Origin: a bacterium
GTDB lineage: Bacteria; SZUA-79; Acidulodesulfobacterales; Acidulodesulfobacteraceae
Reading direction: 5' to 3'
Length of the DNA stretch: 11,966 nucleotides
Assembly (NCBI GenBank): GCA_021794255.1
Contig: JAJYRF010000004.1
Coordinates: 1 to 11,966 of the forward strand
Shown in pieces: positions 428 through 11,966 of this stretch. Position 1 is the first letter of the stretch, and each line of letters opens with the position of its first letter. Position numbers and translations under genes: made by a program. The notes under the pieces were generated by a model. The model did no database searches and was not told where the DNA came from. It saw only the letters and a list, made by a program, of their open reading frames with translations.

Positions 428-1876
428 ATGAATCAGAATATTATTTATATCGATTGTTTCAGCGGCATATCGGGAGATAAATTTTTAAGCGCTTTATATA
501 ATTTAGATTTAATTAAAGAAAACCAATTTTACAATGCAGTAAATAATTTAAATATAAAAGATTTTTCTTCAAAAGATATTTCTTTTGAAGAAACGCAAAA
601 AAAAGGTTTTAAAGGATTGTCGCTTAAAATAAATCCCGACAAAACATCGGTAAAATTTAAAACAATCCATGAAGTAAATAAACAAATTGATTTAATTAAT
701 TTTAAAAATGATATTAAAAACGACATCCGTCTCGTTTATAATATTTTATTTGAAGCAGAAAGCTGCATCCACGGAAAATCTTTAAAAGATTTGCATCTAC
801 ATGAAGTTGCAAGTATAGATACTCTCTTAGATATATCATTATCCGCTTTTATTATTAGCGAACTTAAGCTTAAAAACAAATATCAAAATAATAATAGTGA
901 TAATAATTTACATGATACAAACACATATAAATTTTACGATAATAACTGCATTAATGTTAATAAATCTCAAGAATACAAGAAAAGTGCCGATTACATAAAT
1001 AATGAGAATAATCTCTGCGATAATAATAATGAAACCTGCAATAATAAAACTGATAACAATAAAAATACCTACAATTTTGCTTACGGAAATTATAATATAA
1101 TATGTTCAAAAATTAACTTAGGTTCAGGTATAATTGATATTGCTCACGGTGCTCTATCAGTACCTCCTCCCGCTGTTTCCTACATATTAAAAGAAATACC
1201 AGTTTATGGTTTTGGCGATGACACGGAATTAACCACACCCACCGGAGCCGCTTTAATTAAATATTATGCAAGCGGATACAGCGAAAAAATACCTTCAATG
1301 GAAATAATCTCCGAAGGTTACGGGTGCGGTTCAAAAGACTTAGACAGATTAGTAAACATTTTGAGAATTTTTTACGGAAAATTAAATAAAAACTCTTATA
1401 ATTATCATTATAACAATGAAGATTTGCAAAATTCATATATAAATTATGGCGAAATTGCTGAAATACAGTGTAATATTGATGATATGAACCCTGAAATATA
1501 TGATTTTGTAATTGAAAAATTATTTAAAAATGGAGCATTAGACGTTTTTCTAACCTCTGTAATGATGAAGAAAAACAGACCTGGTATTGTTTTGAACGTT
1601 TTATGCGAGTTTCCGTCAATAAAAAAATTATCTGAGGTAATAATGGAAGAAACTACTTCTATAGGACTCAGAATAGCAAGAAAAGACAAAATTTATATAG
1701 ACAGATTTATAGAAGAAATAGAAACCCCGTTCGGAACAATCAAAGTTAAAGTATCAAAAACCGGAAATAAAATTTTAAATAAAAAACCCGAATATGAAAG
1801 CTTAAAGAAAATAGCGTTAAATAATAATATTTCTTTAAAAGAAGTTTACAATATAGTCAGTAAAATAATTAAATAA
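428..1876 (+). CDS. larC: LarC, nickel-pincer cofactor nickel insertase
   Basis: LarC inserts nickel into pyridinium-3,5-bisthiocarboxylic acid mononucleotide, the last step of the nickel-pincer cofactor used by LarA-type racemases; LarB and LarE act before it. Family signatures are clear. The N-terminus has DCFSGISGDKFL (residues 9-20). LHLHEVASIDTLLDI lies at 122-136, LGSGIIDIAHGALSVPPPA at 231-249 and ELTTPTGAAL at 267-276. The C-terminal domain holds CNIDDMNPE (348-356) and MMKKNRPG (379-386). Residues about 150-222 are an Asn-rich insertion, and the His-rich stretch common in the family is missing. The gene is one uninterrupted frame, unlike Lactiplantibacillus plantarum, where larC is read by frameshifting. 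No Shine-Dalgarno precedes the ATG. larA, larB and larE are not in the window. Family confidence is high. Confidence 0.93.
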   Translation: MNQNIIYIDCFSGISGDKFLSALYNLDLIKENQFYNAVNNLNIKDFSSKDISFEETQKKGFKGLSLKINPDKTSVKFKTIHEVNKQIDLINFKNDIKNDIRLVYNILFEAESCIHGKSLKDLHLHEVASIDTLLDISLSAFIISELKLKNKYQNNNSDNNLHDTNTYKFYDNNCINVNKSQEYKKSADYINNENNLCDNNNETCNNKTDNNKNTYNFAYGNYNIICSKINLGSGIIDIAHGALSVPPPAVSYILKEIPVYGFGDDTELTTPTGAALIKYYASGYSEKIPSMEIISEGYGCGSKDLDRLVNILRIFYGKLNKNSYNYHYNNEDLQNSYINYGEIAEIQCNIDDMNPEIYDFVIEKLFKNGALDVFLTSVMMKKNRPGIVLNVLCEFPSIKKLSEVIMEETTSIGLRIARKDKIYIDRFIEEIETPFGTIKVKVSKTGNKILNKKPEYESLKKIALNNNISLKEVYNIVSKIIK

Positions 1877-2072: not shown

Positions 2073-3506
2073 CTATCCTACGTCATTATACTTACGGAAT
2101 TTAAATTTTACTCCTTTTTCTTCCGCGATTTTTTTAACTTTTTCTGTATCTAAATCTTTTAATCCTACTGCGGAAACAATTACTTCTTTTATATATTTTT
2201 TTGATTCGCCTATAAATTCTAAAATTGATTTAAAAGGCTCTATGGTTAAACCTTTATCTTTTTTTATCTGGGGTCTGCAAACTGCGTTATAATAACCGCT
2301 ATCAGCCGCATTAAGACTTATGCTTATACTGTCTATATATTCGCCAAGTTCTTTTGCTATATTGCGTCCGTAAACAGCGCTGGCAAGCCCGTCCGTATCA
2401 AGTCTTACATACACTCCTTTGTTTTTGAGATGCCGCGCAGCTTTTTTAAGGACGTCAAGACGCAGAGTCGGCTCTCCTAATCCGCAAAATACAACTTCTT
2501 TAAAGTTGTAATAATGAAAAATAGATGATAAAATTTCAGTTTCCGAAGGTTCTTTTTTAAGCTCCAGATTATATCCCTTTACATTAAAATTAACTGCGCC
2601 GTGTTGATATTTAGGACAAAAAATACACTGATTTGTACATTTATTGGTAAGATTTACATAAACAGAATCTCTGATTTTGTAGGCAACGGCAGGATAAAAA
2701 CCTTCAACTCCGTTTAATAAAAAAAGATTTACGGTATTTTGCACTGTTAATTTTTTAAATTTTTCTATGTCTATATTTTTTTCGTTTGCGATTGTTTCGG
2801 CTATAAATCTTATATAAGACGGTTCATTCCTTTTTCCGCGGTATTTTTGAGGAGAAAGAAACGGACTGTCTGTCTCTATTAATAATTTTTCATCGGGAAC
2901 GTCTTTGATAATATCCCTTAAATGCTGATTCTTTCTATATGTTATTTTTCCTGCTATTGAAATAAAATATCCAAGATTTAAAAATTTATTTGCATCTTCC
3001 GTATTTTCACCTGAAAAACAATGAATAACTCCGCCGTAAAATAAATAATTAGAATTATTATAGCTTTTTAAAATTTCGTACGCTTCGTCGTAAGCATCCC
3101 TTATGTGAACGGCAATAGGAAGTTTATTAGCCAATGCGAGTTCTATTTGAAATCTAAATAATTCTTCCTGTTTTTTTTTATCTATTATTTTTTCGCCGTC
3201 TTCATAATAGTCAAGTCCTATTTCTCCTATCGCCGCAACTTTTTCTTTCAAATTTGAAAAATTTATTTCAAATAAATTTTTTATATCGCTAAGACTTCTA
3301 TAATTGCTTTTAGGATGAACTCCGAGAGTAGTGAATATGTTATTATATTTATTGGCAATCTGAATTGTTTTTTCTAATCTTTCATTTTCGGCTAAAGAAC
3401 CGATAGATATGGCATGAGTAATGCCGAATTCTTTCATTCTTTCAAATACCGATGGACGGTCCGCATCAAAATCTTTCATTTCTAAATGGCAATGGGAATC
3501 TATCAT
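2073..3506 (-). CDS. TatD-family metal-dependent hydrolase fused to a radical SAM domain
   Basis: This is a 477-residue two-domain protein. Residues 1 to about 268 form a TatD-type TIM-barrel hydrolase with the expected metal ligands: H5 and H7 in DSHCH, E95 in GEIGLDY, H134 in VHIRD, H162 in VIHCFSG, and D213 in ETDSPFLSP. Residues about 280-477 form a radical SAM domain with a CX3CX2C cluster motif (C290, C294, C297 in NKCTNQCIFC) and a glycine-rich GLGEPTLR (342-349). TatD proteins are usually 3'-5' exonucleases or deoxyribonucleases. A TatD-associated radical SAM family is known as a neighbour or fusion partner, but its reaction is unknown to me. The gene follows metG after 136 bases and is probably last in the tmk cluster. 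No Shine-Dalgarno is visible before the ATG. Domain calls are secure; the joint function is not. Confidence 0.92.
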   Translation of the reverse strand: MIDSHCHLEMKDFDADRPSVFERMKEFGITHAISIGSLAENERLEKTIQIANKYNNIFTTLGVHPKSNYRSLSDIKNLFEINFSNLKEKVAAIGEIGLDYYEDGEKIIDKKKQEELFRFQIELALANKLPIAVHIRDAYDEAYEILKSYNNSNYLFYGGVIHCFSGENTEDANKFLNLGYFISIAGKITYRKNQHLRDIIKDVPDEKLLIETDSPFLSPQKYRGKRNEPSYIRFIAETIANEKNIDIEKFKKLTVQNTVNLFLLNGVEGFYPAVAYKIRDSVYVNLTNKCTNQCIFCPKYQHGAVNFNVKGYNLELKKEPSETEILSSIFHYYNFKEVVFCGLGEPTLRLDVLKKAARHLKNKGVYVRLDTDGLASAVYGRNIAKELGEYIDSISISLNAADSGYYNAVCRPQIKKDKGLTIEPFKSILEFIGESKKYIKEVIVSAVGLKDLDTEKVKKIAEEKGVKFKFRKYNDVG

Positions 3507-3642: not shown

Positions 3643-5307
3643 TTAAATTTTATCCGTTAATCTTGGAAAAAGCATAATATTTTCGTCCGATATTTTAAAA
3701 TATTCCTTAAATATATCTTCTACCGCAACAAATTCGTTGCATAGCGAAAAAGATTTAATATTCAGCAGAGCATTTATTTTATCCGATGTTTTAGGCATAA
3801 ATGGATAAATAAAATAAGAAATATAATATACGGAAACAATAGAACTCCTCAATATAAAATCTAAAAGTCTGTTTCCTTCTTCATTATTAATATCAATTTT
3901 CCATGGTGCGCAGTCATTTATATATTTGTTGACTTTATTCATAAATAAAAATATATCTTCTAAAATTTTAGAAAATTCAAAATTTTCATATCTTTCATTT
4001 AGCGAGCTCTTTAAATATTCGGCATAATTAACTAACTCCATATTTATTTCTGAAGAAAAAGGCACAATGCCGTTCCTATATTTTTTAATCATTGCCTCAA
4101 GCCTTGAAATTAAATTGCCTAAATCATTGGCAAGTTCTGAATTGTACCTTGTTATAAAATTTTTAACCGCAAAATCTCCATCTAATCCGAAAGTAACTTC
4201 TCTCATTAAATAATAACGAAGAGGGTCTTCTCCGTATTTATTAATTACTTCAATAGGATTTACGACATTGCCGAGCGATTTGGACATTTTTTTGCCGTCC
4301 ATAAGCCACCATCCGTGGGCAAAAATAGTTTTAGGCAGCGGAATATCTAAAGCCAAAAGCATAATAGGCCAGTATACCGCATGAAATTTGAGTATATCTT
4401 TTCCGACAATATGATGAACATTGCTAAAATAATTGATAAAATTATTTTCATTTTCATCATTATTGTTATTACTATTAACGTATTCATCGGCATCGCTGCA
4501 AGTGCAGGGCGTATTTACACCGGCATCAGCCCTGTCATATTTTTTATTATATTTACTGTCCTTGCCGTCTGTTTTATCCGCTAAATTTAAATAACCCGCT
4601 CCCGTCAAATAATTAATTAAAGCGTCAAACCACACATAGATAATATGGTCAGGGTTTTCGCGCACGGGAATTCCCCATTTAAATGATGTTCTTGACACGC
4701 TTAAATCATTTAATCCTTCTTTAATAAAACTTATTACCTCGTTTTTTCTAAAAGAAGGTTTAATAAAATCAGGATTATTCTCAATATGATTTAATAATCT
4801 GTCCTGATATTTTTTTAATTTTAAAAAATAACTTTTTTCTTTTATTTTTTCGACCAGTCTTCCGCATTCCGAACAATTTCCGTTAACAAGAGATTTTTCG
4901 GTTAAAAAAGTTTCACAAGGCGTACAGTACCAGCCTTCATAATCAGAAAGATATATATCTCCTCTATCTAAAAGTTCAGAGAAAACTTCCTGCACTGTTT
5001 TAATATGGTCGTCATCGGTAGTTCTGATAAATCTGTCATAAGAAATATCTAAAGAGTTAAAAAGTTCTTTAAATTTTGTGTGAACATTGTCTGCAAGCTC
5101 TTTAGGGGTTATACCTCTTGATAAGGCTTCTTTCTCTATTTTTAACCCATGCTCGTCCGTACCCGTTAAAAATAAGACACTGTACCCCGAAAGTCTTTTA
5201 AATCTTGCAAGTATATCGGCAGATACCGTAGAATAAGCATGCCCTATATGAGGTATATCATTCACATAATAAATAGGGGTCGTTACATAAAAAAACTTTT
5301 TATTCAT
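3643..5307 (-). CDS. metG: methionyl-tRNA synthetase
   Basis: This cytoplasmic class I synthetase charges tRNA-Met. The ATP-binding HIGH motif is exact (H20-I-G-H23), GTDEHG lies at 49-54, and KMSKS is at 340-344. A single zinc knuckle is formed by C128/C131 (CTPC) and C145/C148 (CSEC). WFDAL (226-230) and VGKDILKFHAVYWP (301-314) are family signatures, and an anticodon-binding helical domain follows (INDCAPWK, 463-470). The protein ends at residue 554 without the C-terminal EMAP-II-like tRNA-binding domain, so it is the short form. Residues about 244-290 are a Lys/Asp/Asn-rich insertion between the end of one catalytic-domain strand and the YFSNVHHIVGKD block; it explains why the protein is longer than other short forms. 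It lies 67 bases after the PSP1 gene on the same strand. No Shine-Dalgarno is seen. Confidence 0.97.
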   Translation of the reverse strand: MNKKFFYVTTPIYYVNDIPHIGHAYSTVSADILARFKRLSGYSVLFLTGTDEHGLKIEKEALSRGITPKELADNVHTKFKELFNSLDISYDRFIRTTDDDHIKTVQEVFSELLDRGDIYLSDYEGWYCTPCETFLTEKSLVNGNCSECGRLVEKIKEKSYFLKLKKYQDRLLNHIENNPDFIKPSFRKNEVISFIKEGLNDLSVSRTSFKWGIPVRENPDHIIYVWFDALINYLTGAGYLNLADKTDGKDSKYNKKYDRADAGVNTPCTCSDADEYVNSNNNNDENENNFINYFSNVHHIVGKDILKFHAVYWPIMLLALDIPLPKTIFAHGWWLMDGKKMSKSLGNVVNPIEVINKYGEDPLRYYLMREVTFGLDGDFAVKNFITRYNSELANDLGNLISRLEAMIKKYRNGIVPFSSEINMELVNYAEYLKSSLNERYENFEFSKILEDIFLFMNKVNKYINDCAPWKIDINNEEGNRLLDFILRSSIVSVYYISYFIYPFMPKTSDKINALLNIKSFSLCNEFVAVEDIFKEYFKISDENIMLFPRLTDKI

Positions 5308-6138: not shown

Positions 6139-6186
6139 TATTCTTATTCTTATTCTTATTCTTATTTTTATTCTTATTTTTGTTCT
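6139..6186. repeat. degenerate TATTCT hexamer array
   Basis: Eight tandem hexamers read TATTCT four times (6139-6162), then TATTTT, TATTCT, TATTTT and TGTTCT. They lie in the 176-base gap between holB and the PSP1 gene, in the leader of the latter. The unit size matches the coding TTTATC array in holB, but the unit differs and it has mutated, so it is an older or less active slippage tract. Confidence 0.75.
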
Positions 6187-6246: not shown

Positions 6247-7686
6247 TTATATTTCTGAAAAATATCTGTCTAAAGAAATATGCTTATTTAGATTATAATT
6301 AAGGTTATTGATATGGTTTAAGGTAATTTCAACCATTTCGGATAATTTTTTTTTGTCTAAATTATCAAGCAGAGATATTCTTCTTATTTCTTCATAAATA
6401 TCTATATTATATATTAATTTTATATTTTTTGTAACTAAATAAACTAAAATATCTCTCAATATAAGAAGCATAATTTCAAAAATATAGCCCTCATCTATTA
6501 TTATATTTATATTTATATTATTATCCGAATATATATCGTTATTAATATTAATATTCAAAGGATTATTTTTAATAAAAGTTTCGGAGGAATCTGATTGGAT
6601 TATATTTTTCTTTTTGCTTTTACTGTTCATTTTATTATCAATTTTATTATTTTTTAAAATATTATTAAATTTGTCGGACATATTATAATTATAAAAAGAT
6701 AATTTTTTATTATTATTAAACAAGTCGCTAATAAAAATATCAAAAATATCATTGCGAAGTTTTATATAATTGCCTGAAATAAGATTTGCCAAATTTGACA
6801 TACTGCCTCTTGCAAGTCTTACATAAGCCCGCAATATATCATTATTATATCCGCTATTTTCATTGAGACAGTTTCTGGCATATTCAAACAATATTTCTTC
6901 CTGAATCGGCTTAAAATTAACAACCATACATCTTGATATTATAGTAGGCAAAATATTATTTATACTTGCGGCTATTAAAATAAACACTGTTTTTTCAGGA
7001 GGTTCTTCTAAAATTTTTAAAATTGAGTTCATTGCGCCGACATTCATTCTGGTAATATCGTCTACAATAACAAATCTATGCATATTGTTCGGAGGCAAAA
7101 GAGAAAGAGATTTAGTTAAACTATTAATTTTTTCTATATTAATAAGCCCTTTTTCGTGTTCTATATAAATTATATTAGAATTTGTTTTATTAAGTATTCC
7201 AACACACGAAGGGCATTCTCCGCAAGGATAGGATAATAAATTGCAATAAGCTGAATCGTCAGAATTATTTATATTTAAACAGTCTTTATCTTTATCTTTA
7301 TCTTTATCTTTATCTTTATCTTTATCTTTATCTTTATCTTTATCTTTATCTTTATCTTTATCTTTATCTTTATCTTTAATTAATAAATTGTTTAAATTAT
7401 TTTCATAGTCTTCATTTTTGATTGATAAGTTATTGAAATTATTTGCACAATCTTCATCTTTAAGTAATAAATTATTTAATTTATTACTTAATATATTACT
7501 ATTATTAAAATCTAAACATAGTACCAAGGATGCAAACGAAAAAGCCGTAAATTTTTTTCCTATTGATTCCTGCCCGTAAAATATAAGACCTGACGGAATT
7601 CTATCTTTTGAAATTAAATTGTTTAAAAAAGTTAATTCGCTTTTATGTCCTGATACCTTTGAAAATCCGTAAGGATAATTGTTCAT
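6247..7686 (-). CDS. holB: DNA polymerase III delta-prime subunit (clamp loader)
   Basis: Delta-prime is a clamp-loader AAA+ subunit. The P-loop position reads GQESIGKK (38-45), then come the sensor-1 region FVIVDDITRMN (205-215), NSILKILEEPPEKTVFIL (220-237) and the SRC motif (251-253). The zinc module is C57, C155, C158 and C161 (PCGECPSC). A 97-residue spacer separates the first two ligands, where the family normally has roughly ten. The spacer holds three 14-residue repeats starting at 70, 84 and 98, and a Lys-Asp tract at 104-135 encoded by the TTTATC array. A second Asn/Lys-rich stretch spans about 322-397. At 479 residues it is well above the usual ~330. The ATG overlaps the tmk stop by four bases (ATGA), so the two are translationally coupled. 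DnaX is the main alternative; position after tmk and lack of a DnaX tail favour holB. Confidence 0.88.
   Translation of the reverse strand: MNNYPYGFSKVSGHKSELTFLNNLISKDRIPSGLIFYGQESIGKKFTAFSFASLVLCLDFNNSNILSNKLNNLLLKDEDCANNFNNLSIKNEDYENNLNNLLIKDKDKDKDKDKDKDKDKDKDKDKDKDKDKDKDCLNINNSDDSAYCNLLSYPCGECPSCVGILNKTNSNIIYIEHEKGLINIEKINSLTKSLSLLPPNNMHRFVIVDDITRMNVGAMNSILKILEEPPEKTVFILIAASINNILPTIISRCMVVNFKPIQEEILFEYARNCLNENSGYNNDILRAYVRLARGSMSNLANLISGNYIKLRNDIFDIFISDLFNNNKKLSFYNYNMSDKFNNILKNNKIDNKMNSKSKKKNIIQSDSSETFIKNNPLNININNDIYSDNNININIIIDEGYIFEIMLLILRDILVYLVTKNIKLIYNIDIYEEIRRISLLDNLDKKKLSEMVEITLNHINNLNYNLNKHISLDRYFSEI
7285..7374. repeat. (TTTATC)15 perfect hexamer array inside holB
   Basis: Fifteen identical copies of TTTATC (GATAAA on the coding strand) lie in frame and encode Asp-Lys. 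One degenerate unit (TTTAAT, 7375-7380) follows on the right. There is no synonymous change in 90 bases, which points to recent replication slippage and not to selection on the protein alone. Because the unit is six bases, gain or loss of copies keeps the holB frame. Confidence 0.97.
7354..7479 (-). repeat. three imperfect 42-bp tandem repeats in holB
   Basis: Residues 70-83 (LNNLLLKDEDCANN), 84-97 (FNNLSIKNEDYENN) and the start of the third unit at 98 (LNNLLIKDKDKDKD) align as a 14-residue, 42-base repeat. The hexamer array begins in the KDED position of the third unit, so it appears to have grown inside an older repeat. Confidence 0.75.
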
Positions 7687-10236: not shown

Positions 10237-10305
10237 ATTAATAAAAAATTTAAATTTTAAAAAGTTAAAAACTTTAAAACACACCCCTATATGTATTATA
10301 AATTT

Positions 10306-10333
10306 TTTATCATATATCCCTCAACATTGTCAA
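10306..10333 (-). promoter_or_regulatory. candidate sigma-70-type promoter of the porin gene
   Basis: On the minus strand a perfect TTGACA (10333-10328) is followed after 16 bases by GATAAA (10311-10306). This predicts a leader of about 70-75 bases. A perfect TATAAT also occurs at 10300-10295, but it is 27 bases from the -35 and would need another partner. The exact -10 is therefore uncertain. Confidence 0.45.
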
Positions 10334-10930
10334 GAAAAATAATTATTTTTTTTAAACTACTATCTTATTGTAAAACATTCATTTATTACAATATACGAAT
10401 ATTCTTATATAACTCTTCAACCGATTATTTGCTCAAATTTGACAGCCTCTGCATTTTGAACATTTTCAAATCATAATATTCCAACCTTACGATATCCCTT
10501 TTGATTTTTTATATTTATAATCATATTATATTATATATAAAATAAAAATTATTGTTTATTACATATATAATAGAATTATACATTATTGTAAAATACAAAT
10601 TGTAGATTAAATTTTAGCCTATAATCTATAATTAAGTTCTATAGTCCATAATTAAGTAATGATGCAAAGAATATGCCATTGTAATTAATAAACATATTTA
10701 TAAATAAAAAATAATAAAATTAGGAAGTTATATAGTTATATAATAGTTGTAAACGAGGTCTATCTCTGCATATTGTATAAATTATTGCATAAATTATGAA
10801 TTTTTATTCGCATGTCATTATGGATAGTGAACTAAAATTCACATAATATAAAAAAAAATTTTGAGCTTTTAACTATACATAATAATACATAATATAATAA
10901 ATTAGGATACAACAAGCTTATTTATCAAAA
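10334..10930. other. long AT-rich gap with no supported gene
   Basis: Both strands are AT-rich with many stops, and I find no RBS-backed gene. The only structure seen is an imperfect 20-base direct repeat around 10619-10658, in which TCTATAATTAAGT (10625-10637) is followed by TCCATAATTAAGT (10645-10657). The gap separates the porin promoter from the IS-type hairpin and the tRNA region. Confidence 0.5.
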
Positions 10931-10938
10931 CAACTTCT

Positions 10939-11010
10939 GCTGCCCCTATGGCAGCCCCCTAATCATAGCAGGCTTTTATAAGCCCCGGCTTTAGCCGTGG
11001 AGTTTATGAC
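10939..11010. mobile_element. orphan IS200/IS605-like end hairpins
   Basis: Two GC-rich hairpins stand out in the AT-rich gap. The first is GCTGCC-CCTAT-GGCAGC (10939-10955, 6 bp perfect). The second is CCCCGGCT-TT-AGCCGTGG (10983-11000, 7 of 8 pairs), followed by AGTTTATGAC. From memory, GGCTTTAGCC-centred hairpins with a GTGG/AGT border are characteristic of subterminal ends of IS200/IS605 elements and of the 3' part of TnpB guide RNAs. No tnpA or tnpB lies in the window, so this would be a remnant or a non-autonomous end. A rho-independent terminator is less likely because neither strand has a T run after either hairpin. Confidence 0.4.
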
Positions 11011-11073
11011 GTCTGATATTTAAAGTATGGAGAAAAATTTAAGCATGAGATATGACTATAAAAAGGTTTTAAC

Positions 11074-11150
11074 TGGCGGGGCCGACGGGGATCGAACCCG
11101 CGACCTCCGGCGTGACAGGCCGGCGTTCTAACCGTCTGAACTACAGCCCC
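11074..11150 (-). tRNA. tRNA-Asp (anticodon GTC)
   Basis: The 77-base cloverleaf includes an encoded CCA. The acceptor GGGGCTG pairs with CGGCCCC (one G-T wobble). The D stem is GTTC/GAAC. The anticodon stem CCGGC/GCCGG closes loop CTGTCAC with anticodon GTC (plus-strand bases 11114-11116). The T stem GCGGG/CCCGT closes TTCGATC. The discriminator base is G, as expected for tRNA-Asp. It lies downstream of the broken gene and tRNA-Val on the same strand and may share their transcript. Confidence 0.97.
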
Positions 11151-11186
11151 GTAAAGATATGAATAAAACCACGAGTGTTAAATATA

Positions 11187-11488
11187 TTAATGTATTAGCT
11201 TAAGAATAGCAATAACAATGCCGACCGTTACGCCGACCTGAATTATAAACAGCCCTGCAAACCACTTTATAAGCCTGATTTCCAAATTATTCATCTTAAT
11301 ATCTATTCTTGCTTCAAGCTCTTTCAAACCGTTAGCCAAATCCGTCTTAGTAACAATATTGGATAAAACCACGGACGAAAGTACCTCTCTATCTGTGCCT
11401 CGGCAAAAGCCTTTGCCTGCTTCTCAGGCATACCCGCGTTTATTAATTTTTCCGCATAAGCCAGCGTATCAAAAATAATAGCTTCCAT
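11187..11488 (-). pseudogene. frameshifted small coiled-coil protein with C-terminal membrane helix (DUF1640-like)
   Basis: Two minus-strand frames together spell one small protein of about 100 residues. The first starts at an ATG (11486-11488) and reads MEAIIFDTLAYAEKLINAGM then PEKQAKAFAEAQ. It continues as IERYFRPW and stops at a TGA (11324-11326) after 54 residues. The second frame, one base back, takes over near 11388-11395 with REVLSSVVLSNIVTKTDL, then NGLKELEARIDIKMNNLEIR and a membrane helix, ending at 11187. A 61-residue product from a GTG (11370-11372) is all that frame can encode alone. The joined architecture (FDTL, EKQAxAxAEAQ, VTKTDL, KELEARID, RLIKW plus one TM helix) matches small bacterial coiled-coil proteins I associate with DUF1640; their role is unknown. 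A one-base loss or an assembly error explains it. No obvious slippery heptamer is present. It sits between two tRNA genes. Confidence 0.65.
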
Positions 11489-11560
11489 AATACCGATATG
11501 ATAATTGATTTATAAAGAAAAGTCAAGGAATTAATACTGTGTTCCGGTATTCCATTGATA

Positions 11561-11637
11561 TGGTAGGCGGAACAGGGTTCGAACCTGTGACCCCCGGCTT
11601 GTAAAGCCGATGCTCTAACCTGCTGAGCTATCCGCCC
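11561..11637 (-). tRNA. tRNA-Val (anticodon TAC)
   Basis: The 77-base cloverleaf includes an encoded CCA. The acceptor GGGCGGA pairs with TCCGCCT, giving a slightly unusual G1-U72 wobble at the terminal pair. The D stem is GCTC/GAGC. The anticodon stem TCGGC/GCCGG closes loop TTTACAA with anticodon TAC (plus-strand bases 11601-11603). The T stem ACAGG/CCTGT closes TTCGAAC. The discriminator is A. It is the most upstream member of the minus-strand tRNA - small gene - tRNA group. Confidence 0.97.
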
Positions 11638-11671
11638 GTTAAGGAATATACATAAATTTTTTAGCTTAATT

Positions 11672-11700
11672 AGTTTAACATTTTATTTAATTTATTGCAA
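11672..11700 (-). promoter_or_regulatory. weak candidate promoter for tRNA-Val
   Basis: On the minus strand TTGCAA (11700-11695) and TAAACT (11677-11672) are separated by 17 bases, and the implied start is about 28 bases before the tRNA. Both boxes match the consensus at only four or five positions, and the surroundings are AT-rich. Confidence 0.3.
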
Positions 11701-11753
11701 TATAAAATGAAATCTGAAACTTGCCGATTGAAAATTTTATTACAGTAAAAACA

Positions 11754-11801
11754 AACCCCCGTTCTTTTTGAAAAAACCTTTTAAAAAAGAATTAGGGGGT
11801 T
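11754..11801 (-). terminator. long hairpin, probable terminator upstream of tRNA-Val
   Basis: AACCCCC (11754-11760) pairs with GGGGGTT (11795-11801). Inside it TTCTTTTT (11762-11769) pairs with AAAAAGAA (11784-11791), with a 1/3-base internal bulge and a 14-base loop. Read on the minus strand it is followed by TTTGTTTTT, which fits a terminator for a gene beyond the right edge. The plus-strand side has no T run. Confidence 0.6.
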
Positions 11802-11837
11802 AAATATAACTCATTAATAATCATAAATCTAAACTAT

Positions 11838-11966
11838 TAAAGTAAAGAACTAAAGTAAAGAACTAAAGTAAAGAACTAAAGTAAAGAACTAAAGTAAAGA
11901 ACTAAAGTAAAGAACTAAAGTAAAGAACTAAAGTAAAGAACTAAAGTAAAGAACTAAAGTAAAGAA
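11838..11966. repeat. 13-bp tandem array (TAAAGTAAAGAAC), reaches window edge
   Basis: Nine complete identical copies of TAAAGTAAAGAAC plus 12 bases of a tenth run off the right edge, so the full length is unknown. Because 13 is not a multiple of three, every frame meets a stop within 39 bases on both strands, so the array cannot be coding. The lack of divergence between copies suggests recent expansion. There are no unique spacers, so it is not CRISPR. Confidence 0.97.

Follow-up and report, generated by a model that had tools for sequence, protein, structure and literature searches.

The window (11,966 nucleotides, the whole stretch of DNA analysed) covers positions 1 to 11,966 of contig JAJYRF010000004.1, from a bacterial assembly (GCA_021794255.1) of the order Acidulodesulfobacterales. 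Its reverse strand carries holB (6247..7686), encoding the 479-residue clamp-loader subunit delta-prime of DNA polymerase III (HolB), in which a long spacer with tandem repeats separates the presumed first and second zinc ligands. The open reading frame (ORF) matches PF13177 with 135.2 bits, above the cut-off of 27. Its best NCBIfam match is TIGR00678 (E-value 2.6e-39), found in two stretches with 134.8 bits against a curated cut-off of 180.6. The source organism is related to bacteria of acid mines, and the closest protein comes from Candidatus (Ca.) Acididesulfobacter diazotrophicus (P0001, 79% identity). In a HolB tree built without the spacer, in which 7 of 24 inner branches were well supported, the window was nearest to genome G002 (AP1), with 91% identity over 348 columns. 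The guanine-cytosine (GC) content of the window, 29.7%, is near the 29.88% given for AP1 in excerpts of PMC6776010. A plasmid search returned a Mesomycoplasma AAA-ATPase as its sole match, covering 8% of the query.

HolB has cysteines at residues 57, 80, 136, 148, 155, 158, 161, 253 and 273. The presumed first zinc ligand is C57 (codon at 7516..7518, reverse strand, as for all HolB features below), and presumed ligands two to four form the CxxCxxC motif C155-C161 (7204..7224). All 16 rows of alignment A1 have cysteine at the positions of C57, C155, C158 and C161. A phmmer search aligned residues 154-311 of the query with residues 58-213 of Escherichia coli delta-prime (1a5t), placing C155 at position 59; in that protein C50, C59, C62 and C65 presumably bind zinc. 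The expected upstream cysteine, 13 residues after the Walker lysine, was found in 27/27 proteins of the set used for spacing and in 35/35 of a wider HolB set. By alignment C57 is the first ligand, as the initial annotation had proposed, and no alignment placed this ligand near C155. Rank, not motif, decided the choice of the A1 rows and of the 26 loci L019-L044, and the motif is present in all. Alignment A3 consists of 71 hand-picked rows without DnaX-like rows, some delta-prime-like rows and seven motif-less proteins (P0016, P0054, P0097, P0098, P0099, P0115 and P0120). Because its rows were hand-picked, the 71/71 count of the ligand cysteines in A3 is partly due to choice.

The spacer cysteines bear on the alternative that the zinc site was rewired, with C148 (or C136) replacing C57, so that the short spacing would be restored and the loop would lie outside the module. 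C148 (7243..7245) precedes C155 by seven residues, and C148-X6-C155 resembles the usual spacing of 7-12 residues seen in 96 of 103 homologs. HolB of G016 also has an extra cysteine six residues before the second ligand. However, the upstream cysteine is kept in all 35 proteins, including the window and the seven others, G016 among them, that have an extra spacer cysteine, and the columns of C80, C136 and C148 each hold cysteine in 1 of the 71 A3 rows. By eye, G002 and G007 contain the same DCLNIN stretch, so C136 is common to them despite its column count. C148 was rejected as a replacement ligand on its column count, and a rewired site appears very improbable.

The spacer comprises 97 residues (58-154; 7225..7515). 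Within it, residues 71-112 (7351..7476) form three degenerate 14-residue (42-bp) repeats (71-84, 85-98 and 99-112), of which the third continues into an uninterrupted (Lys-Asp)16 run (KD run) at residues 104-135 (7282..7377). In the DNA the KD run is a 100% perfect (TCTTTA)16 array at 7283-7378, and a 42-bp period extends over 7366-7485 (2.9 copies, 76% match). Ahead of the KD run, the spacer has a 42-nucleotide self-match of 0.61, which the best lag equalled in 4 of 5000 codon shuffles; this periodicity exceeds chance. All 16 lysines of the KD run are encoded by AAA and 15 of the 16 aspartates by GAT, the last being GAC. The probability of 16 AAA and 16 GAT codons is about 3e-4 under the codon use of the window genes outside the spacer, slightly higher with the observed GAC, and because of this improbable uniformity the run looks freshly expanded. 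The earlier description of 97 residues between C57 and C155/C158/C161, with three 14-residue repeats and a 16-fold Lys-Asp run, was borne out by the ORF and the DNA array. The interval assigned to it, 7251-7518, begins correctly with the C57 codon when read on the coding strand but ends short of the C155-C161 codons.

A long loop is found beyond this genome, being shared in shorter form by the group members examined. The distance between the first and second ligands (C1-C2 spacing) was 17-98 in 26/26 group HolB proteins, including that of the window, with group membership inferred from HolB similarity. It is 98 in the window, 62 in G007, 59 in G002, 38-42 in G001, G003, G004 and G006, and 17-58 in nineteen further relatives, while the outgroup G035 has 9. 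Proteins P0002 and P0003 have spacings of 58 and 69. HolB of G005 is cut at the contig start, no full-length HolB was obtained from G021, G022, G025 and G030, and one of two G017 matches entered the spacing set. The spacers also vary in type: they are short and of a DY...LNF kind in one set of relatives and rich in asparagine, aspartate and lysine (N/D/K-rich) in the genus. The spacing, whose length the initial annotation had expected to vary between strains, differs among close species-level relatives (98, 69, 62, 59, 58, 42 in several, 38).

Among 110 wider homologs (P0011-P0120, delta-prime and DnaX mixed) the motif was present in 103, with a spacing of 7-12 in 96 of these. The largest values were 19 and 29, the latter in P0077, whose unusual Walker offset makes its first cysteine doubtful. 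In E. coli delta-prime (1A5T, 1JR3 chain E) the spacing is about 9. The window HolB lacks this short spacing, a feature that is not necessary on present evidence. DnaX, which has the same zinc module, has a spacing of 9 in 11/11 proteins examined from these genomes, and because its modules keep this value the insertion appears to have arisen in delta-prime. Compared across the group, the insertion probably predates diversification, and its length kept changing afterwards.

The 14-mer recurs in the relatives in differing copy numbers, and at the position of the KD run they have KDED-type units (A1, by eye). In holB a perfect tandem array lies at a locus whose length differs among relatives, as in a coding microsatellite grown by slippage. 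Seven relatives together have 11 arrays of AAAGAT with at least three copies, 9 of them in long ORFs and 2 outside. All nine genic arrays are translated as Lys-Asp, even though such an array has five open frames out of six; KD-prone seeds already within K/D-rich linkers may also account for this bias. The hosts, named by eye, are NadB-like, GltX-like, HdrA-like, lipoate-ligase-like and Kdo-transferase-like proteins, a P-type ATPase, DnaX, a histidine kinase and one unnamed protein. In DnaX of G007 (L123, 1501-1518) the ATPase domains are followed by a KDKDKD run and a long N-rich stretch, with the zinc module at the usual spacing, and an HdrA-like protein of G005 (L051, L102) has a KD run and a long, repetitive, Asn/Ser-rich C-terminal part.

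For counts of arrays, low-complexity stretches and orthologs, genes were mechanical ORFs of at least 100 residues. In the sampled DNA, the period of perfect arrays of at least 18 bp was divisible by three in 33/33 coding versus 15/77 non-coding cases. G002 and G006 have 29 such coding arrays in 0.887 Mb and G010, G013 and G019 have 4 in 0.873 Mb, a density about 7 times higher in the former. These counts fit a model in which slippage occurs everywhere and long arrays inside genes pass a frame filter. In bacteria, short tandem repeats are described as indel hotspots in parts of PMC12699852, a survey that finds no average enrichment of them there. Like those hotspots, the array in the window would be expected to change length; unlike in the survey, coding arrays of G002 and G006 far exceed those of the three other group genomes in density.

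Two further explanations concern the array itself. Since holB contains short tandem repeats, HolB might be switched on and off by phase variation, making the gene a contingency locus. Such a locus requires a frame-shifting unit length and was rejected for a unit of 6: changes by whole hexamers preserve the frame, as do the periods of all 33 long coding arrays in relatives, which makes phase variation extremely unlikely. Alternatively, the array length could be an artefact of assembly, with the repeat collapsed or mis-resolved. Short reads presumably cope poorly with perfect low-complexity arrays, and the window ends inside another perfect array. However, the spacer minus the KD run still has 65 residues, so that only the exact copy number would be doubtful, long spacers are found in relatives from other assemblies, and KD arrays recur elsewhere in the relatives. 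It is therefore very unlikely that an artefact accounts for the array length.

Inserts are also found in other genes of the window. MetG (3643..5307, reverse strand) has a variable N/D-rich insert at about residues 258-286 and LarC (428..1876, forward strand) a variable N-rich one at about residues 151-218, both relative to G001; in relatives these inserts are shorter or absent. Tmk has inserts in G001, G003, G004 and G006 and none in the window or G002, and in RicT the differences are confined to near the tail. Positions 2073-3506 encode a fusion of a TatD nuclease with a radical SAM domain (TIGR04038), and no inserts were seen in it among the relatives compared (only part of the L082 copy could be aligned). 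Internal low-complexity stretches are present in 15/120 proteins of G002, 23/134 of G006 and 5/157 of G010.

Internal indels of at least 10 residues were compared between orthologs, dropping pairs below 60% identity, which kept 61/73 pairs for G002/G006, 76/81 for G010/G013, 119/130 for G010/G019 and 48/60 for G013/G019. In the genus, N, D and K make up 48% of indel residues (core 22%). The control values are 23% for G010/G019 (core 20%), 20% for G010/G013 (core 21%) and 36% for G013/G019 (core 21%, only 25 residues). Indel size and composition separate the genus more clearly than the frequency of indel-bearing genes. On these sequence comparisons, the HolB insertion is one case of a broader tendency towards in-frame low-complexity inserts, which the initial annotation had missed.

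AlphaFold2 predicted a delta-prime (clamp-loader subunit) fold for HolB, in which confidence was low over most of the spacer (83-142). The predicted local distance difference test (pLDDT) score is below 50 at residues 83-92 and 94-142, and the early spacer is modelled as helix up to residue 75. The model agrees with the earlier proposal that the clamp loader could accommodate a long loop, and the spacer is probably mostly disordered. The HolB core (without the spacer and residues 326-395) has a ratio of nonsynonymous to synonymous substitution rates (dN/dS) of 0.13 against the nearest relative; holB is under purifying selection.

The likely explanation is a lineage-specific, tolerated loop between zinc ligands one and two, which would have grown from repeats and is probably mostly disordered, with frame, polarity and the cysteine core kept by selection. 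The ancestral loop would already have exceeded the usual 9 residues before the group diversified, because every member examined has a spacing of at least 17. In Ca. Acididesulfobacter the spacer would then have been extended through tandem duplication of the 42-bp unit, and in this genome the K-D-rich AAAGAT stretch of the third unit would have grown by replication slippage to (KD)16. Since the repeat units have lengths divisible by three and encode a polar peptide of balanced charge, loop length could shift, perhaps almost neutrally, without harm to frame or core. C57 and C155-C161 would be expected to close the zinc site still, with the loop extending into the solvent. The shorter versions in related species therefore point to a tolerated, fast-changing insert and not to a new kind of machine.

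Several observations weigh against this explanation. The aligned spacer has a dN/dS of 0.27 against G002 and 0.22 against G007 (against G006 dN is 0.62 and dS is saturated, so the ratio is not computable); these values below 1 mean that the aligned part is not free of constraint. Under the looser threshold of 12 bp and 3 copies, coding periods not divisible by three occur in 7/18 arrays of G002 and 4/24 of G006 (0/3 in G010). An excess of indel-bearing genes in the genus was not significant (12/61 G002/G006 versus 12/119 G010/G019 pairs, Fisher p 0.10); the other control pairs gave 7/76 (G010/G013) and 2/48 (G013/G019), with no significance test applied. Spacer length did not correlate significantly with local GC content (rho -0.29, p 0.14, n=26), and GC content alone was rejected as its cause. 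Finally, all group members examined carry the insertion at one site and none of the DnaX proteins examined carries it, a pattern that would be compatible with a function.

The insertion might thus be a selected functional element, a charged tether of delta-prime that contacts DNA, single-stranded DNA-binding protein, the clamp or a partner, or that tunes loading, its length being under selection. The shared position in 26/26 group members, the 11/11 uninterrupted DnaX zinc modules and the spacer dN/dS values all favour such a role. On the other hand, neither the sequence nor the length of the spacer is conserved (DY...LNF type versus N/D/K-rich; 17-98), and unrelated enzymes hold similar inserts, so we regard a functional tether as unlikely. 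Slightly less likely still is its strongest form, in which the group-wide loop is a dedicated, length-tunable charged tether selected on one clamp-loader subunit and the KD expansion is the extreme of a functional length series.

Other repeats lie outside holB. A perfect 13-bp array, TAAAGTAAAGAAC, with 9.9 copies occupies window positions 11838-11966 and is cut by the window end; a search of 10 relatives for two copies of it, allowing up to 2 mismatches, gave no match. TATTCT is repeated 8 times (88% matches) at 6139-6186, between the end of holB and the start of ricT. About 1.7 kb of the window (10239-11966) has no ORF of at least 80 residues, with further repeats at 10505-10657.

Compared with bacterial delta-prime proteins, the window HolB also scores below the NCBIfam holB cut-off and adds a second variable stretch at about residues 326-395 (6502..6711), seen in A1 and with pLDDT below 50 at 360-389. 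Low-complexity or homopeptide tracts occur in loops of conserved proteins. Tracts of this kind that grew from coding repeats are known in Plasmodium and fungi (PMC2705789, PMC8113271). The insert in the window is likewise Asn/Lys/Asp-rich, apparently grown from coding repeats and placed within a conserved enzyme, but it is bacterial, lies between ligands of one metal site and is a dipeptide (hexamer) array. No title on a delta-prime insertion was found among the best-matching open-licence literature, and the delta-prime zinc module is not treated in the zinc passages of PMC5872134 (12 of 19), PMC3290774, PMC3331839, PMC11044049 and PMC12871192 that were available. PMC6776010, on the order, makes no mention of low complexity, tandem, repeat, asparagine or HolB in its accessible portions.

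The HolB of the window reveals how large an insertion a core replication protein apparently tolerates in its zinc module. Together with its relatives it provides a natural length series, from 9 to 98 residues, for probing the role of this module. It also draws attention to a bacterial genus, as yet uncultivated, whose conserved enzymes are reshaped by in-frame repeats, as is better known from AT-rich eukaryotes.
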